From the NCBI GenBank assembly GCA_002215645.1, contig NGFI01000010.1, forward strand, positions 62,001 through 126,000: a DNA stretch of 64,000 nucleotides, written 5' to 3'. The translations under genes were made by a program, and so were the position numbers. Of the stretch, positions 34,062-39,991 are shown in pieces (the stretch's first letter is position 1; each line of letters begins with the position of its first letter). This DNA is from Gemmatimonadetes bacterium 2013_60CM_65_52. GTDB taxonomy: Bacteria; Gemmatimonadota; Gemmatimonadetes; Gemmatimonadales; Gemmatimonadaceae. Below the pieces are notes generated by a model that was not told where the DNA came from, made no database searches, and saw only the letters and a program-made list of their open reading frames with translations.

Positions 34062-36320
34062 TCACATGAGCTGCTGGGGATCGCGGTCGATCGTCATTCG
34101 CAACCCGAATTGACGGGGCACCTCCAGCCGCCGAGCCAGATAGTTCACCATCCGGCCCAAATCCGCTGGCCGGTCGGATTTGAGGAGCACGTGCCACCGC
34201 CAGCGTTGTTTGACACGCTCCACCGGACAGGGGGCGGGCCCAATCACGGAGACGCGAAGCGCCGGCTTGGCGGCCAGCAGATCGCGCATCCAGGCGGCGG
34301 CGGTCGCCGCAAAGGTCGCCGTCGCCTCCTCCTGCGTTCCACTCACCACCACGTTCGCGAGGCGGACGTCCGGCGGATACGGGGGATCGTGACGTCCGGC
34401 AAGCTCCTGTTCGACGAACCGGTGATAGTCGTGCGTGACGGCGCAGCGCACGGCATGATGCGACGGCGTTCTGGTCTGGATGAGCACTTCCCCACCCTTC
34501 GGTCCGCGGCCGGCACGGCCGGCCACCTGACTGAGAAGCTGGAAGCAGCGCTCGGACGCGCGGAAGTCCGGGAGGTTGATGCCGACGTCCGCGTCGATCA
34601 CCCCAACGAGCGTGACGTTCGGGAAGTCGAGCCCCTTCGCGATCATCTGCGTGCCGAGCAGAATGTCGACATGGCCTGCGCCAACCCGATCGAGAATCTC
34701 CGTGTGCGCCCATTTTCCGCTGGTCGTATCCACATCCATACGGGCGACCCGTGCGTCGGGAAAACGCTCGCTCAGCAGACGTTCCACCTGCTGCGTGCCG
34801 AGGCCGCGCTGACGCAGTCGTTGTCCGCCGCAACGAACGCACGCGAGCTGAAGGGGCTCGACGTGCTGACAATAGTGACACACGAGCTGTTCCGGCGTGC
34901 GGTGATACGTGAGGCTGATGCTGCAGTTGGGACACACGGTCACGTCGCCGCAGGTACCGCACTGGATGAACGCCGAGTAGCCGCGGCGATTCAGCAGGAG
35001 GATGCTCTGTTCCTTTTTTGCCAGCCGGTCACGGAGCGCAGTCTCGAGCGGCTCGCTCACGGCAAGTCGGAACGTGACGTCTGCCGCGGGCGGTGGAGTC
35101 GTCGTCGTCCGCTCCACGCGCAGATCGACGACGCGTACCTCTGGCAGCGACGCACCGCCTGCACGGTCGGGGAGCGTGAGCAGCTCGTACTTCCCCGACG
35201 TCGCATTCGTCCAGCTCTCCAGACTTGGCGTCGCACTGCCGAGCACCACCACCGCGCCCGCAGCCCGCGCCCGTACGATGGCAACCTCGCGCGCATGATA
35301 TCGCGGCGATTCGCCCTGCTTGTAGCTCGACTCGTGCTCCTCGTCCACGATGATCGCGCCGAGATCTCGCAGAGGAGCAAAGATGGCGGAGCGTGCGCCG
35401 ACCGCGATGCGCTTTTCTCCGCGCGCGAGGGCGAGCCAGGCGTCGTAACGCTCACCCGTCGACAGGGCGCTGTGCAGCACGGCGATGCGGTCGCCGAACT
35501 CGGCGCGGAAGCGATCCACCGTCTGGGGCGTGAGTGCGATCTCCGGCACGAGCACGATGGCCGTGCGATTCTGCTCGATGACGACGCGACGGAGCAGCTC
35601 CAGATAGACCAACGTCTTGCCGCTCCCGGTGACGCCGTGCAGCAGAGCGACATGGCCCGGCGGCGCCGCAGACAGGCGCGCGATCGCATGACGCTGTGCT
35701 TCCGTGGGCGTGTGACGTGCCGGCGACATGCGCGCGCGCGACAAGAACGGATCGCGCGCGACTGTTTCGTCTTCCACGTCCACGAGGCCGCGCGTGGCAA
35801 GCCCTTTGAGCACCGACGACGAGAAGTGCAACTTCTCCTGGAGCGACTCGACTGCTGCCGAGCCGCCCACCGCCTCGATGAGCTCATAGAGCGCGCGCTG
35901 CTGCGGCGCGCGTGCAAAGACCTTCTCGCGCTGCATCAGCGACGGCAGCTCTCCGCGCAGTCGCGCCACACGCCGTTTCGCGCGAGTCGGCTCCGGCGCC
36001 TCGGCTCCCGTCAGGGCCGCGGGTAAAGCGGCACGCAAGGCCACGCCCAGCGGGGCGACATAATAGTCTGCAATCCATCGGCAGAGCGCGATCATCGCGT
36101 CGCTCAGCACCGGGCCTTCATCCGGTGCGGCAGCGATGGATTTCACGCGCACGGCGTCATTGGCGACGCCAGTCCCCACGACGATGCCGAGCTCCCTGCC
36201 ACCGTGGAAGGGCACGATCACGCGCGATCCGGCGGCGACGCTTCCTGTCGTCCCCTCAGGCACCGAGTAGGTGAACGTGCGATACAGGGGCAGCGCGAGG
36301 GCGACGTCGATCAGCGACAC
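34062..36320 (-). CDS. priA: Primosomal replication protein N' (PriA helicase)
   Basis: 752 aa. 3'-5' DNA helicase that restarts collapsed forks. N-terminal DNA-binding part (ALPLYRTFTYSVPEG; VIVPFHGGRELGIVV), Walker A HGVTGSGKTLVYLELL, DEEH box IIVDEEHESSYKQ, SATPSLESW, then the zinc-binding cysteine insertion CGTCGDVTVCPNCSISLTYH with CHYCQHV and CVRCGG, and motifs V/VI around LLGTQMIAKGLDFPNV and QVAGRAGRG. Normal length. The GTG-type start at 36320 follows the epimerase gene by 18 bases. Confidence 0.96.
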   Translation of the reverse strand: MSLIDVALALPLYRTFTYSVPEGTTGSVAAGSRVIVPFHGGRELGIVVGTGVANDAVRVKSIAAAPDEGPVLSDAMIALCRWIADYYVAPLGVALRAALPAALTGAEAPEPTRAKRRVARLRGELPSLMQREKVFARAPQQRALYELIEAVGGSAAVESLQEKLHFSSSVLKGLATRGLVDVEDETVARDPFLSRARMSPARHTPTEAQRHAIARLSAAPPGHVALLHGVTGSGKTLVYLELLRRVVIEQNRTAIVLVPEIALTPQTVDRFRAEFGDRIAVLHSALSTGERYDAWLALARGEKRIAVGARSAIFAPLRDLGAIIVDEEHESSYKQGESPRYHAREVAIVRARAAGAVVVLGSATPSLESWTNATSGKYELLTLPDRAGGASLPEVRVVDLRVERTTTTPPPAADVTFRLAVSEPLETALRDRLAKKEQSILLLNRRGYSAFIQCGTCGDVTVCPNCSISLTYHRTPEQLVCHYCQHVEPLQLACVRCGGQRLRQRGLGTQQVERLLSERFPDARVARMDVDTTSGKWAHTEILDRVGAGHVDILLGTQMIAKGLDFPNVTLVGVIDADVGINLPDFRASERCFQLLSQVAGRAGRGPKGGEVLIQTRTPSHHAVRCAVTHDYHRFVEQELAGRHDPPYPPDVRLANVVVSGTQEEATATFAATAAAWMRDLLAAKPALRVSVIGPAPCPVERVKQRWRWHVLLKSDRPADLGRMVNYLARRLEVPRQFGLRMTIDRDPQQLM

Positions 36321-36338: not shown

Positions 36339-37367
36339 TCAGCGCGTGCGCGCGTCGACGCCGAGTCCGGGCCCGTCGGGCAGTCGGATGATGCCGTCGT
36401 CGATCGTCGCGCCGACGAAGGGATCGTTGGAGACCAGCGCGTGCCCGTCGAAGTCCGCGCAGTCCAGCAGCGGCGCGAAGTGGCAGGCCGCGGTGATGCC
36501 GAGCGAGCTCTCGATCATGCAACCCGCCATGACCATCATGTCGTGTGCGCGCGCGGTGGCGATCATGCGGAGCGCTTCTCGCAATCCGCCGCACTTGGCG
36601 AGCTTGATGTTGATGCCGTCCACCACGCCGGCAAGCTTTGGGATGTCGCCCGACACGAGACAGCTCTCGTCGGCGATGATGGGGAGCGCCGACCGCTCGC
36701 GTACGAAGCGCAGGCCGGCGATGTCACCGGGCGGCAAGGGCTGCTCGACGAATTCGACGCCGAGCTCCTGGAGCAGCGGCACAATACGGAGCGTGGATTT
36801 CGGCGTCCACGCGGCATTGGCGTCGACGCGAAGCACCTTGTCGGGAACGAGCTCGCGAACCACGCGCACGATGCGTTCGTCCCACGTGCTGCCGAGCTTG
36901 ATCTTGAGCACGGGGTACTGCTGTGCCTCTTCCACGCGCTGGCGCAGCGTCTTCTCGTCGGGCGCGATGCCGATGGTGAAGCTCGTGCGGGGAGACGCCG
37001 CCGGATCGAGCCCCCACAGGCGATAGACCGGGATACCGAGTCGCTTTCCGACGAGATCGTGCAGCGCCGCACTCACGCCGGCGCGCGCCGCGCCGTTGAA
37101 GCGAATCGGCCCCTTGAGTGCGTGCTCCATTGCCTCCAGCGACCAGCTATCCATGCCGGCGATGGCCGACGCGAGGATCGGGAGCACGTCCACGACCGTA
37201 TCGGCCGTCTCGCCGTAGAATGCGCTGGGTGCGGCCTCGCCCCATCCCGTGGCGCCGTCGCGGTCCGTGACCGTAATGCGGACAACGCGATATTCACTCG
37301 CCCCGCCGCGCGAGATGAAGAAGGGGTTCTTCGTCCGCAGCGTGAGGATTTCGTGCGTGAGCTTCAT
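36339..37367 (-). CDS. Dipeptide epimerase (L-Ala-D/L-Glu type), enolase superfamily
   Basis: 342 aa. Enolase-superfamily motifs: general base KxK in LKIKLGSTWDER, metal ligands in LRVDANAAWTP, FVEQPLPPGD and IIADESCL, second lysine in GINIKLAKCGGLREA, and a late NDPFVG. The CMIESSLGI segment and the DPF end are typical of L-Ala-D/L-Glu epimerases that act on murein dipeptides; another dipeptide substrate is possible. ATG overlaps the kinase stop (ATGA). Fits with anmK, murQ and the amidase elsewhere in the window. Confidence 0.87.
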   Translation of the reverse strand: MKLTHEILTLRTKNPFFISRGGASEYRVVRITVTDRDGATGWGEAAPSAFYGETADTVVDVLPILASAIAGMDSWSLEAMEHALKGPIRFNGAARAGVSAALHDLVGKRLGIPVYRLWGLDPAASPRTSFTIGIAPDEKTLRQRVEEAQQYPVLKIKLGSTWDERIVRVVRELVPDKVLRVDANAAWTPKSTLRIVPLLQELGVEFVEQPLPPGDIAGLRFVRERSALPIIADESCLVSGDIPKLAGVVDGINIKLAKCGGLREALRMIATARAHDMMVMAGCMIESSLGITAACHFAPLLDCADFDGHALVSNDPFVGATIDDGIIRLPDGPGLGVDARTR

Positions 37368-38371
37368 GTCGTTTCGGAGAGCAGTGGCCTGGCGAGAGTT
37401 GCGGAACGGCGGGTGGTTGTCTTCGGGTCGTCGGCCGTTGCAAGATATGCGAGCAGCGCGTCGGCAACGTCACAGCCTCGCTCGTACCGCTCCGACGCCT
37501 GCTTGGAGAGACATCGCATGATGACGTTGACGAGGCCTTCGGGCAGGCGCGAGTCCACGACGGCGAGGTCCACCGGCTGTTCGTGCACATGCTTGTATCC
37601 GACGGAAAACGCATCCGCTCCGTCGAAGGGTGGAAACCCTACGAGCGCCTCGTACATGACGATGCCGAGCGCATAGAGATCGCTGCGGCCGTCCACGAGC
37701 TTGCCCATGGCCTGCTCCGGGCTCATGTAGTGCGGGGTTCCCATCGCGCGTCCGCTGGCGGTGAGACGCGCGTGGAATCGCGCGGTCGCGATGCCGAAGT
37801 CGGTGATGAGGGCGTTTCCGTCCTCATCGAAGAGGATGTTGTCGGGCTTCACGTCGCGATGCACGACGCCGCGGCGATGCGCGTGATCGAGCGCGACGGC
37901 CACTTGCGCCGCCGCCGCGGCGATGAATGTGGGCGCGAGCGCATGCTCCTTGTGCACGCGGTCGGCGAGCGAGCCACCGGCCAGAAAAGGCATGACGATG
38001 TAGATCGTCTCACCCGAGCGGCCGAAATCCAGCAGCGGACAGATGAACGGATGCACGAGCTGCGCGGCCGCCTCGGCTTCGCGCCGGAAGCGCTCCGCCA
38101 TCTCGGTATCCCGCGCGAGATGCGGATGCAACACTTTCACGACGACGTCCCGCCCAAGCGGCATCTGCTCGGCGCGATACACCGTGGCCATGCCGCCGCC
38201 GCCGAGCCGGCCGAGGATGCGATAGCGGCTGCCGGTGGCGCGGCGGATCGCGGTGATCTCGTCGTCGGGTTTTTCCGTGGAGACGCCGGCCACCGCCGGG
38301 AGGGCGGCGCTGCACCGGCTGCACGTCGCGGCGAGCGCGCGATTCCACGTGCCGCATTCAGGACAGAACAT
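37364..38371 (-). CDS. Ser/Thr protein kinase with N-terminal zinc ribbon
   Basis: 335 aa. Zinc ribbon CPECGTWNRALAATCSRC at about 3-20, then a kinase domain: GRLGGGGMATVYRAEQ, lysine in VVVKVLHPH, HRDVKPDNILF, DFG in ITDFGIATA, and GTPHYMSPEQA. No membrane span and no C-terminal sensor, so it is cytosolic. The start overlaps the GvpL/F-like stop as TGATG, and the stop overlaps the epimerase start. Confidence 0.94.
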   Translation of the reverse strand: MFCPECGTWNRALAATCSRCSAALPAVAGVSTEKPDDEITAIRRATGSRYRILGRLGGGGMATVYRAEQMPLGRDVVVKVLHPHLARDTEMAERFRREAEAAAQLVHPFICPLLDFGRSGETIYIVMPFLAGGSLADRVHKEHALAPTFIAAAAAQVAVALDHAHRRGVVHRDVKPDNILFDEDGNALITDFGIATARFHARLTASGRAMGTPHYMSPEQAMGKLVDGRSDLYALGIVMYEALVGFPPFDGADAFSVGYKHVHEQPVDLAVVDSRLPEGLVNVIMRCLSKQASERYERGCDVADALLAYLATADDPKTTTRRSATLARPLLSETT

Positions 38372-38982
38372 CAGGCTCCGAGCTGCATCTGAACGAAGTC
38401 GTAGGGCGGCCAGGGCCCGGTGATCTCGAAGCGGACTGACGTCGTCGTCTTGCCCTGCGCTTCCACTTCCGCCACGAAATCCTTCCAGAGCTCGTCTTCA
38501 ACGAGAAACGCGGCGCTGAGGACGACGCCCGCCTGCCCCTCCATTCGCAGTGGCAGCGACGCTACCGCCGCTCTCCGCAACACTCGCAGGCTCTCGCCGG
38601 CAATGGTGGCGAGGTCGATGTTCGCGTCGCGAGCCTCGCCGCGGTGCGCGCGCCTGACGTGCACGCGCGCCGCCACGCGATTCTCAACGTAACTCAACGC
38701 GTCTGTCAACGTGCTGTAATGGAGCTCGAGCCACCGCTGCACCGACTCCTCGGAGCGAAACACGACGCCCACCGGTGATGGCAGCACCGGTCCCCGCGCT
38801 CCGTAGGCGGCGACCACGTCCGCGAAGTGTTGCACGGTGGCATCATCAGGCTCGGTGGGATGGTACTCAGTGGCTCCGCAGATCGCGGCGATGTCACGCA
38901 CGGTGACGAGCATCGCGTCGGGCACCTGCAGGTCCGTCACGTGTGCGTCGTACACGGTTACGCCGAACAGATTCAGGGCCAC
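38371..38982 (-). CDS. Solitary GvpL/GvpF-like protein
   Basis: 203 aa from GTG 38982, chosen because AAAGGAG lies seven bases upstream; the longer frame upstream is shadow. Two-part layout: N-terminal alpha/beta part (VALNLFGVTVYDAHV; VVFRSEESVQRWLELHY) and a C-terminal ferredoxin-like part ending VRFEITGPWPPYDFVQMQLG. The GPWPPYdFV ending is the hallmark of gas vesicle GvpL/F family proteins. No gvpA, gvpN or other gas-vesicle genes are in view, so it may have another role. It is translationally coupled to the Ser/Thr kinase. Confidence 0.82.
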   Translation of the reverse strand: MALNLFGVTVYDAHVTDLQVPDAMLVTVRDIAAICGATEYHPTEPDDATVQHFADVVAAYGARGPVLPSPVGVVFRSEESVQRWLELHYSTLTDALSYVENRVAARVHVRRAHRGEARDANIDLATIAGESLRVLRRAAVASLPLRMEGQAGVVLSAAFLVEDELWKDFVAEVEAQGKTTTSVRFEITGPWPPYDFVQMQLGA

Positions 38983-39061
38983 GCGCTCGCTCCTTTGCGT
39001 TTCACCCGACGCCAGGGCCGAGCTGTGAAGATATGTCCGGTGCCGCGCTGCGAACAGGCGA

Positions 39062-39991
39062 TCAGAGCAGCGCGCGCAGGTGCCGGGCGCTTGCCGCGCC
39101 GAGTCGATCCGGGACATACCCGCCCTCGAGTACACTCACCACGCGGCCACCACACCACTGTTCGGCGCGCGACACGAGAGCGCGCGTCAGCTCCTCCACG
39201 TCATCGAGCTCGAGGGTGAAGTTCCCGAGAGGATCGCCGGCGAGGGAGTCGAAGCCCGCCGAGATCAGGACGAGGTCGGGAGTGAAGCCCGACGTGGCGT
39301 CGTCGACGGCCCGAACCAACGCATCCACGTATCGCTGCCGGGGAAGACCACCGGGAAGCGGGACATTCCAAACGTTGTCGTGCGGTCCGCGATCCGAAGC
39401 GGCGCCCGTGCCCGGATACCACGGCCACTGATGCATGGAGACGAAGTGCACGTCGGCAATGTCCTCGACGAGCGCCTGCGTCCCGTTGCCGTGATGCACG
39501 TCCCAATCGACGATCAGAACGCGTTCGGCGCCGTGCTTGGCGCGGACATACCGCGCGCCGATGGCGACGTTGCCGAAAAGACAGAACCCCATCGCCTGTC
39601 CACGCAGAGCATGATGTCCGGGCGGTCGCACCGCGCAGAAGCTGCGGCGCGGGCCGTCGCCGAACGCTGCATCAACGGCGTCGAGCACGGCTCCGACTCC
39701 GGCCGTTGCCGCCAGCCACGAGCCGGCGCTGACCACGGTGTCCGCATCGAGCCGGCCGCCACCGGTGTTCGCGAGGGACTCGACCTGCGCGACGTACGAC
39801 GCCTCGTGCGCGAGGGAAATCTCGTCCGCCGTCGCATGCCGCGCCTCGCGGTGGTCGAGCGCGTGATACAGCTCGATGTCGTCGCGAAAAGCGCGCGAGA
39901 TCGCGCGCAACCTTCCCACGTGGTCGGGATGTCCCCAGCCAGTGTCGTGCGTGCCGCAGTCCGCGTGCGAGATATAGGCGACGGTGCTCAT
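39062..39991 (-). CDS. Histone deacetylase family (acetylpolyamine/AcuC-like) hydrolase
   Basis: 309 aa. Zinc-dependent deacetylase of the HDAC/AcuC family. Motifs: AVRPPGHHALRGQAMGFCLF, the zinc ligands in VDWDVHHGNGTQ, and AGFDSLAGDPLGNF, then LEGGY. Bacterial relatives remove acetyl groups from acetyl-CoA synthetase lysines or from acetylated polyamines; substrate here unknown. The start overlaps the preceding Bat-cluster gene (ATGA), and 79 bases separate its stop from the GvpL/F-like gene. Confidence 0.93.
   Translation of the reverse strand: MSTVAYISHADCGTHDTGWGHPDHVGRLRAISRAFRDDIELYHALDHREARHATADEISLAHEASYVAQVESLANTGGGRLDADTVVSAGSWLAATAGVGAVLDAVDAAFGDGPRRSFCAVRPPGHHALRGQAMGFCLFGNVAIGARYVRAKHGAERVLIVDWDVHHGNGTQALVEDIADVHFVSMHQWPWYPGTGAASDRGPHDNVWNVPLPGGLPRQRYVDALVRAVDDATSGFTPDLVLISAGFDSLAGDPLGNFTLELDDVEELTRALVSRAEQWCGGRVVSVLEGGYVPDRLGAASARHLRALL

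Follow-up and report, generated by a model that had tools for sequence, protein, structure and literature searches.

Why should a bacterium without any detectable gas vesicle shell protein gene maintain a gene for a gas vesicle accessory protein, and why should this gene overlap that of a Ser/Thr kinase? This question is raised by a locus of Gemmatimonadetes bacterium 2013_60CM_65_52 (Gemmatimonadota, family Gemmatimonadaceae), located in the 64,000-nucleotide stretch of contig NGFI01000010.1 that was analysed here (the window). Gemmatimonadota are mostly soil bacteria. To our knowledge, GvpF and GvpL have been studied solely as gas vesicle assembly factors, and the molecular job of their fold is still debated. 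A limited literature search retrieved no paper on a solitary GvpL/F with a kinase, nor on gas vesicles in Gemmatimonadaceae, although such an absence proves little. The first-pass annotation of the locus had proposed a repurposed GvpL/F with a regulatory role.

The two open reading frames were found at positions 37364-38982 as annotated, within a series of genes on the minus strand. In order of transcription, these encode a histone-deacetylase-family hydrolase (39062..39991; PF00850, E=7e-82), the GvpL/F-fold protein (38371..38982), the kinase (37364..38371), an enolase-superfamily dipeptide epimerase or DgcA-like racemase (36339..37367) and PriA (34062..36320). The hydrolase, epimerase and PriA were assigned by profile matches combined with synteny and are conserved neighbours, the hydrolase on the upstream side and PriA on the downstream side across the phylum. 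The GvpL/F gene has a GTG start, a probable ribosome-binding site (AAGGAG, 38990..38995) 7 bases upstream of it, and a product of 203 amino acids; as had been noticed, its stop overlaps an intact zinc-ribbon kinase gene, the TGA (38373-38371) sharing one base with the kinase ATG in the sequence TGATG (38369..38373). The kinase stop and the epimerase start in turn overlap by four bases (ATGA). The order in Gemmatimonadaceae (hereafter f1) is deacetylase, CorA or another gene in some genomes, GvpL/F, kinase, epimerase and PriA, the epimerase being absent between kinase and PriA in a few genomes.

The GPWPPYDFV hallmark of GvpL/F proteins is present as described, at residues 189-197 (38392..38418), and the protein matched PF06386 with E=3.6e-25 and 89.9 bits (Pfam gathering cut-off 23.6). 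An AlphaFold2 model, a check that the first-pass annotation had suggested, was obtained from 57 sequences with a pLDDT of 92.2 and a pTM of 0.85, and the cyanobacterial GvpF structures 6l5d (Z 20.5, rmsd 2.4 Å, 201 of 203 residues) and 4qsg (Z 18.7) matched it far better than the next unrelated entry (8.7 or less). In Foldseek and sequence profile comparisons, too, the window protein matched cyanobacterial GvpF over its own full length. As modelled, the window protein has the complete two-domain GvpF fold.

The statement that no other gvp gene is in view was extended to the whole genome (4.2 Mb, 14 contigs, 97% complete), in which the window gene is the only PF06386 gene and no match was found for PF00741 (GvpA/J), PF05121 (GvpK) or PF05120 (GvpG). 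In the same searches the PF05121 and PF05120 models found their genes in two genomes with gvp clusters, and the GvpA model, as positive control, matched in 27 of 298 genomes of the phylum. An overlooked gas vesicle cluster elsewhere in the genome, which would have spoken against a solitary gene, is thereby ruled out for these four families.

The scan of these 298 Gemmatimonadota genomes revealed two kinds of PF06386 genes: cluster copies adjoining gvpA, and a divergent copy whose position is constant. A tree was built from 110 proteins, and in it the divergent copies (47 rows) formed one branch with support 100, standing apart from the cluster-encoded GvpF and GvpL proteins of Gemmatimonadota, Bacillota and Chlorobiota, so that the phylogeny suggested earlier places the solitary copies in a clade of their own. 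This branch splits into the f1 copies (support 95) and those of four other families (f4, f6, f7 and f9), as expected under vertical descent; recent gene transfer is ruled out, since the tree tracks the families. A profile scan of contigs, based on the single peptide pattern [TS]GPWP[PA]YD and therefore liable to miss remoter solitary copies outside the phylum, gave matches that nearly all came from Gemmatimonadota, with Roseisolibacter sp. H3M3-2 and one Longimicrobiaceae genome among them; the few from elsewhere were canonical cluster copies. The solitary protein represents a new subfamily of the known GvpL/F fold, which appears to be vertically inherited and specific to Gemmatimonadota.

The clade is also recognizable by its residues: P70, R106 and D195 are invariant, where cluster GvpF has S, G and N; about 37 residues of cluster GvpF are missing, with the deletion after positions 116-121; and H53, N156, D170, Y187 and others that are fixed in GvpF have been lost. 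The ratio dN/dS was below 1 in every pair of solitary genes and between 0.05 and 0.4 in nearly all, including lineages free of gvpA (0.16-0.20 in genus g9, 0.08-0.15 in family f9, 0.05-0.14 in close f6 pairs); one g22 pair reached 0.63 by this simple method, which probably overestimates at very high G+C. Judged by these ratios, the gene is under purifying selection, also in deep gvpA-free lineages. A pseudogene is ruled out by the same values, the apparent internal TAG in g18 being merely a normal stop codon, and a chance open reading frame by fold, selection and clade. In genus g5 a shortened form (L038:5800-6177, L039:5715-6092) has lost the C-terminal domain but still has the N-terminal one together with the PPYDYVRMELGA tail; its conservation in two species under purifying selection (dN/dS 0.08) is a hint that these two parts form the core.

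A separate clade, purifying selection without gvpA and the loss of GvpF-fixed residues together make it well supported that the solitary protein was repurposed or is independent of gas vesicles, and this part of the original proposal stands; a regulatory role in concert with the kinase is a guess. In gas vesicles, the hydrophobic shell protein GvpA is bound by GvpF, which is believed to hold it in soluble form (PMC7688916, PMC11445434). Starting from the fold, clade, gene order, purifying selection and lack of gvp genes in the window genome established here, the explanation that we favour, with a probability of roughly 0.55, is a gas-vesicle-independent GvpL/F subfamily of Gemmatimonadota, likely a cytosolic adaptor with another client, co-translated with a kinase in f1. 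The subfamily would have been inherited vertically and have lost its dependence on gas vesicles. As body and tail are kept, GvpF-specific residues are lost and there is no GvpA to serve, it would most likely act as a small, soluble binding protein or adaptor in the cytosol, the two-domain body that holds GvpA in gas vesicles being applied to a different client. Within Gemmatimonadaceae, its co-translation with a soluble zinc-ribbon Ser/Thr kinase may reflect contact between the two proteins. A pathway shared by the two is plausible, and it is the least certain step of this explanation; a GvpL/F-kinase module is putative.

The alternative that survives best holds that GvpL/F and kinase are unrelated neighbours in an operon-like block, their overlap reflecting the block's compact style; we give it not far short of an even chance. 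In the window, kinase and epimerase overlap just as tightly, and GvpL/F and the kinase occur apart in both directions. On the one hand, about ten f1 genera (including g2, g4, g6, g8, g10, g16, g21, g24 and g26) carry the kinase without GvpL/F, in the same place, after CorA or the deacetylase. A merely divergent GvpL/F in g4, g8 and others was considered and rejected, the gap there holding CorA, an S51 peptidase or nothing. Retention of the kinase where the GvpL/F place is empty indicates that GvpL/F was lost at least two to three times in f1 while the kinase stayed. On the other hand, f4, f6, f7 and f9 have GvpL/F in the same block without the kinase, mostly close upstream of PriA (f4) or of the epimerase (most of f6, f7 and f9). 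The pairing is thus not specific, and it is the block as a whole that is conserved. Mirror-tree partial correlations with GvpL/F distances point the same way, with 0.31 for the kinase, 0.34 for the deacetylase and 0.72 for PriA: in these divergence data nothing appears to single out the kinase by co-variation. Against mere neighbourhood, however, the kinase lies immediately downstream of GvpL/F in all 44 f1 loci that carry GvpL/F and could be measured, with gaps that never exceed 99 nt and at 33 loci lie between -1 and +5 nt, and the GvpL/F-kinase divergence correlation persists when the two remaining genes are controlled for (partial Mantel p 0.001). The coupling seen in the window therefore holds throughout these loci of its own family, but not in the four other families.

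The opposite view, in which the zinc-ribbon kinase of Gemmatimonadaceae has GvpL/F as its own dedicated substrate or as the subunit that targets it, draws on the same conserved co-translation and on the state of the kinase itself. The window kinase (335 amino acids) is a soluble Hanks-type enzyme that begins with MFCPECG..CSRC and contains the motifs GxGGMAxV, HRDxKPDN, DFG and SPE (Pkinase, E=5e-46). Its orthologs, found in nearly every f1 genome, mostly score at least 500 bits, as against 308 or less for paralogs. In 22 aligned orthologs, the four cysteines of the zinc ribbon (C3, C6, C17 and C20; 38312..38365), K79, H171-R172-D173, D191-F192-G193 and S217-P218-E219 are invariant, so both ribbon and catalytic motifs are intact. 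Yet about ten genera keep an intact kinase with no GvpL/F, other families carry GvpL/F with no kinase, and we regard a dedicated partnership as rather unlikely. The model of the anti-phage kinase PD-T4-6 (PADLOC) matched the kinase domain with up to 297 bits, a score that any Hanks kinase might well reach; the vertically inherited housekeeping block argues against such an identity, and in the case of GvpL/F an anti-phage system was rejected, the PADLOC search giving no match.

A gas vesicle accessory protein encoded outside the cluster, assisting assembly in genomes with a gvp cluster and slowly decaying as a remnant in those that have lost it, is a distinctly unlikely reading, to which the distribution of gas vesicle genes nevertheless lends some weight. 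Among 179 f1 genomes examined, 35 have gvpA, and all 33 that could be assessed carry the solitary gene; the other two (G228 and G338) lack it, but as they are incomplete and lack the kinase ortholog as well, the block was probably not assembled. With these two set aside, gvpA is absent from all of the approximately 95 f1 genomes without the solitary gene, while some 47 have the solitary gene and no gvpA. Such a restriction of f1 clusters to genomes with the solitary gene would fit a gas vesicle role, against the explanation that we favour. By genus, gvpA occurs in 12 of 24 with and 0 of 11 without the solitary gene (Fisher ~0.003, uncorrected for kinship), and on the kinase tree all of about nine cluster changes fall on solitary-gene lineages, which make up 67% of branch length (chance ~0.03), both chance figures being arithmetic from counts. 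In genera g3, g5 and g13 (L238, L235, L236, L237) the cluster is found on the same strand as the block, 10-17 kb upstream of it, and the intervening genes include purA. However, the solitary gene was lost in only two to three events in f1, the association therefore rests on few independent points, and with kinship taken into account it is weak. Outside f1, moreover, gvpA is found without the solitary gene in f3, f5 and two f6 genomes, and gvp clusters encode a GvpF and a GvpL of their own. The selection in deep gvpA-free lineages and the disappearance of GvpF-fixed residues described above likewise argue against decay and against a retained gas vesicle function.

Some gvp loci of the family are of interest in themselves. 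The last gene of Gemmatimonadaceae clusters, right after the GvpA genes, belongs to a single sequence cluster (L238:12105-14408, L235:5788-7947, L240:2011-4380) and encodes a PAS-domain sensor histidine kinase (Pfam-checked in L238), and L238:15005-15607 encodes a 200-aa fusion of a GvpA/J-like domain with GvpK (PF00741 and PF05121). In genus g20, an extra, cluster-type GvpF is located 3-13 kb downstream of the block and is immediately followed by a PAS-domain histidine kinase gene (L239:4958-8070, L233:5401-8387, L234:4412-7524, L232:15313-18296; Pfam-checked in L239). This pair precedes PriA at all but one of these four loci and is accompanied by no other gvp genes, a full cluster being present elsewhere; it looks like a gvp cluster reduced to its two ends. 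That a phylum-wide GvpL/F subfamily was taken from gas vesicle assembly into a cytosolic signalling unit, its GvpF-fold adaptor working with the zinc-ribbon Ser/Thr kinase, seems to us improbable; on that reading, the g20 pair would be a second case.

If selection maintains this subfamily without the shell protein, the GvpF fold would be shown to bind something besides GvpA, and the solitary proteins offer a simple, gas-vesicle-free system to learn what it binds. There is also a practical side, as the annotation "gas vesicle protein GvpL/F", given on a solitary gene alone, would lead to a genome being misread as that of a gas vesicle former.

Compared with known systems, the window protein shares with cyanobacterial GvpF (6l5d, 4qsg) the TGPWPPYxF tail and the residues P68, L160 and F169, but it is only 13-16% identical and about 37 residues shorter, N195, G106, H53 and other GvpF-fixed residues are replaced, and it is encoded outside any gvp cluster in a genome without GvpA. 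It belongs to the same superfamily as the GvpL of gas vesicle clusters (NF045778), but matches that model weakly (27.4 bits), far under the equivalog cut-off of 200 bits, and is placed on a separate branch. GvpL of Halobacterium binds other accessory Gvps (PMC7688916), whereas none of those searched for was found in the window genome. Its neighbour, finally, has the full catalytic domain of PknB-type Hanks kinases (its kinase domain scores 326 bits with NF033483, short of the 450 required), but differs from them in having no PASTA domains and in being short and soluble, with a zinc ribbon at the N-terminus.
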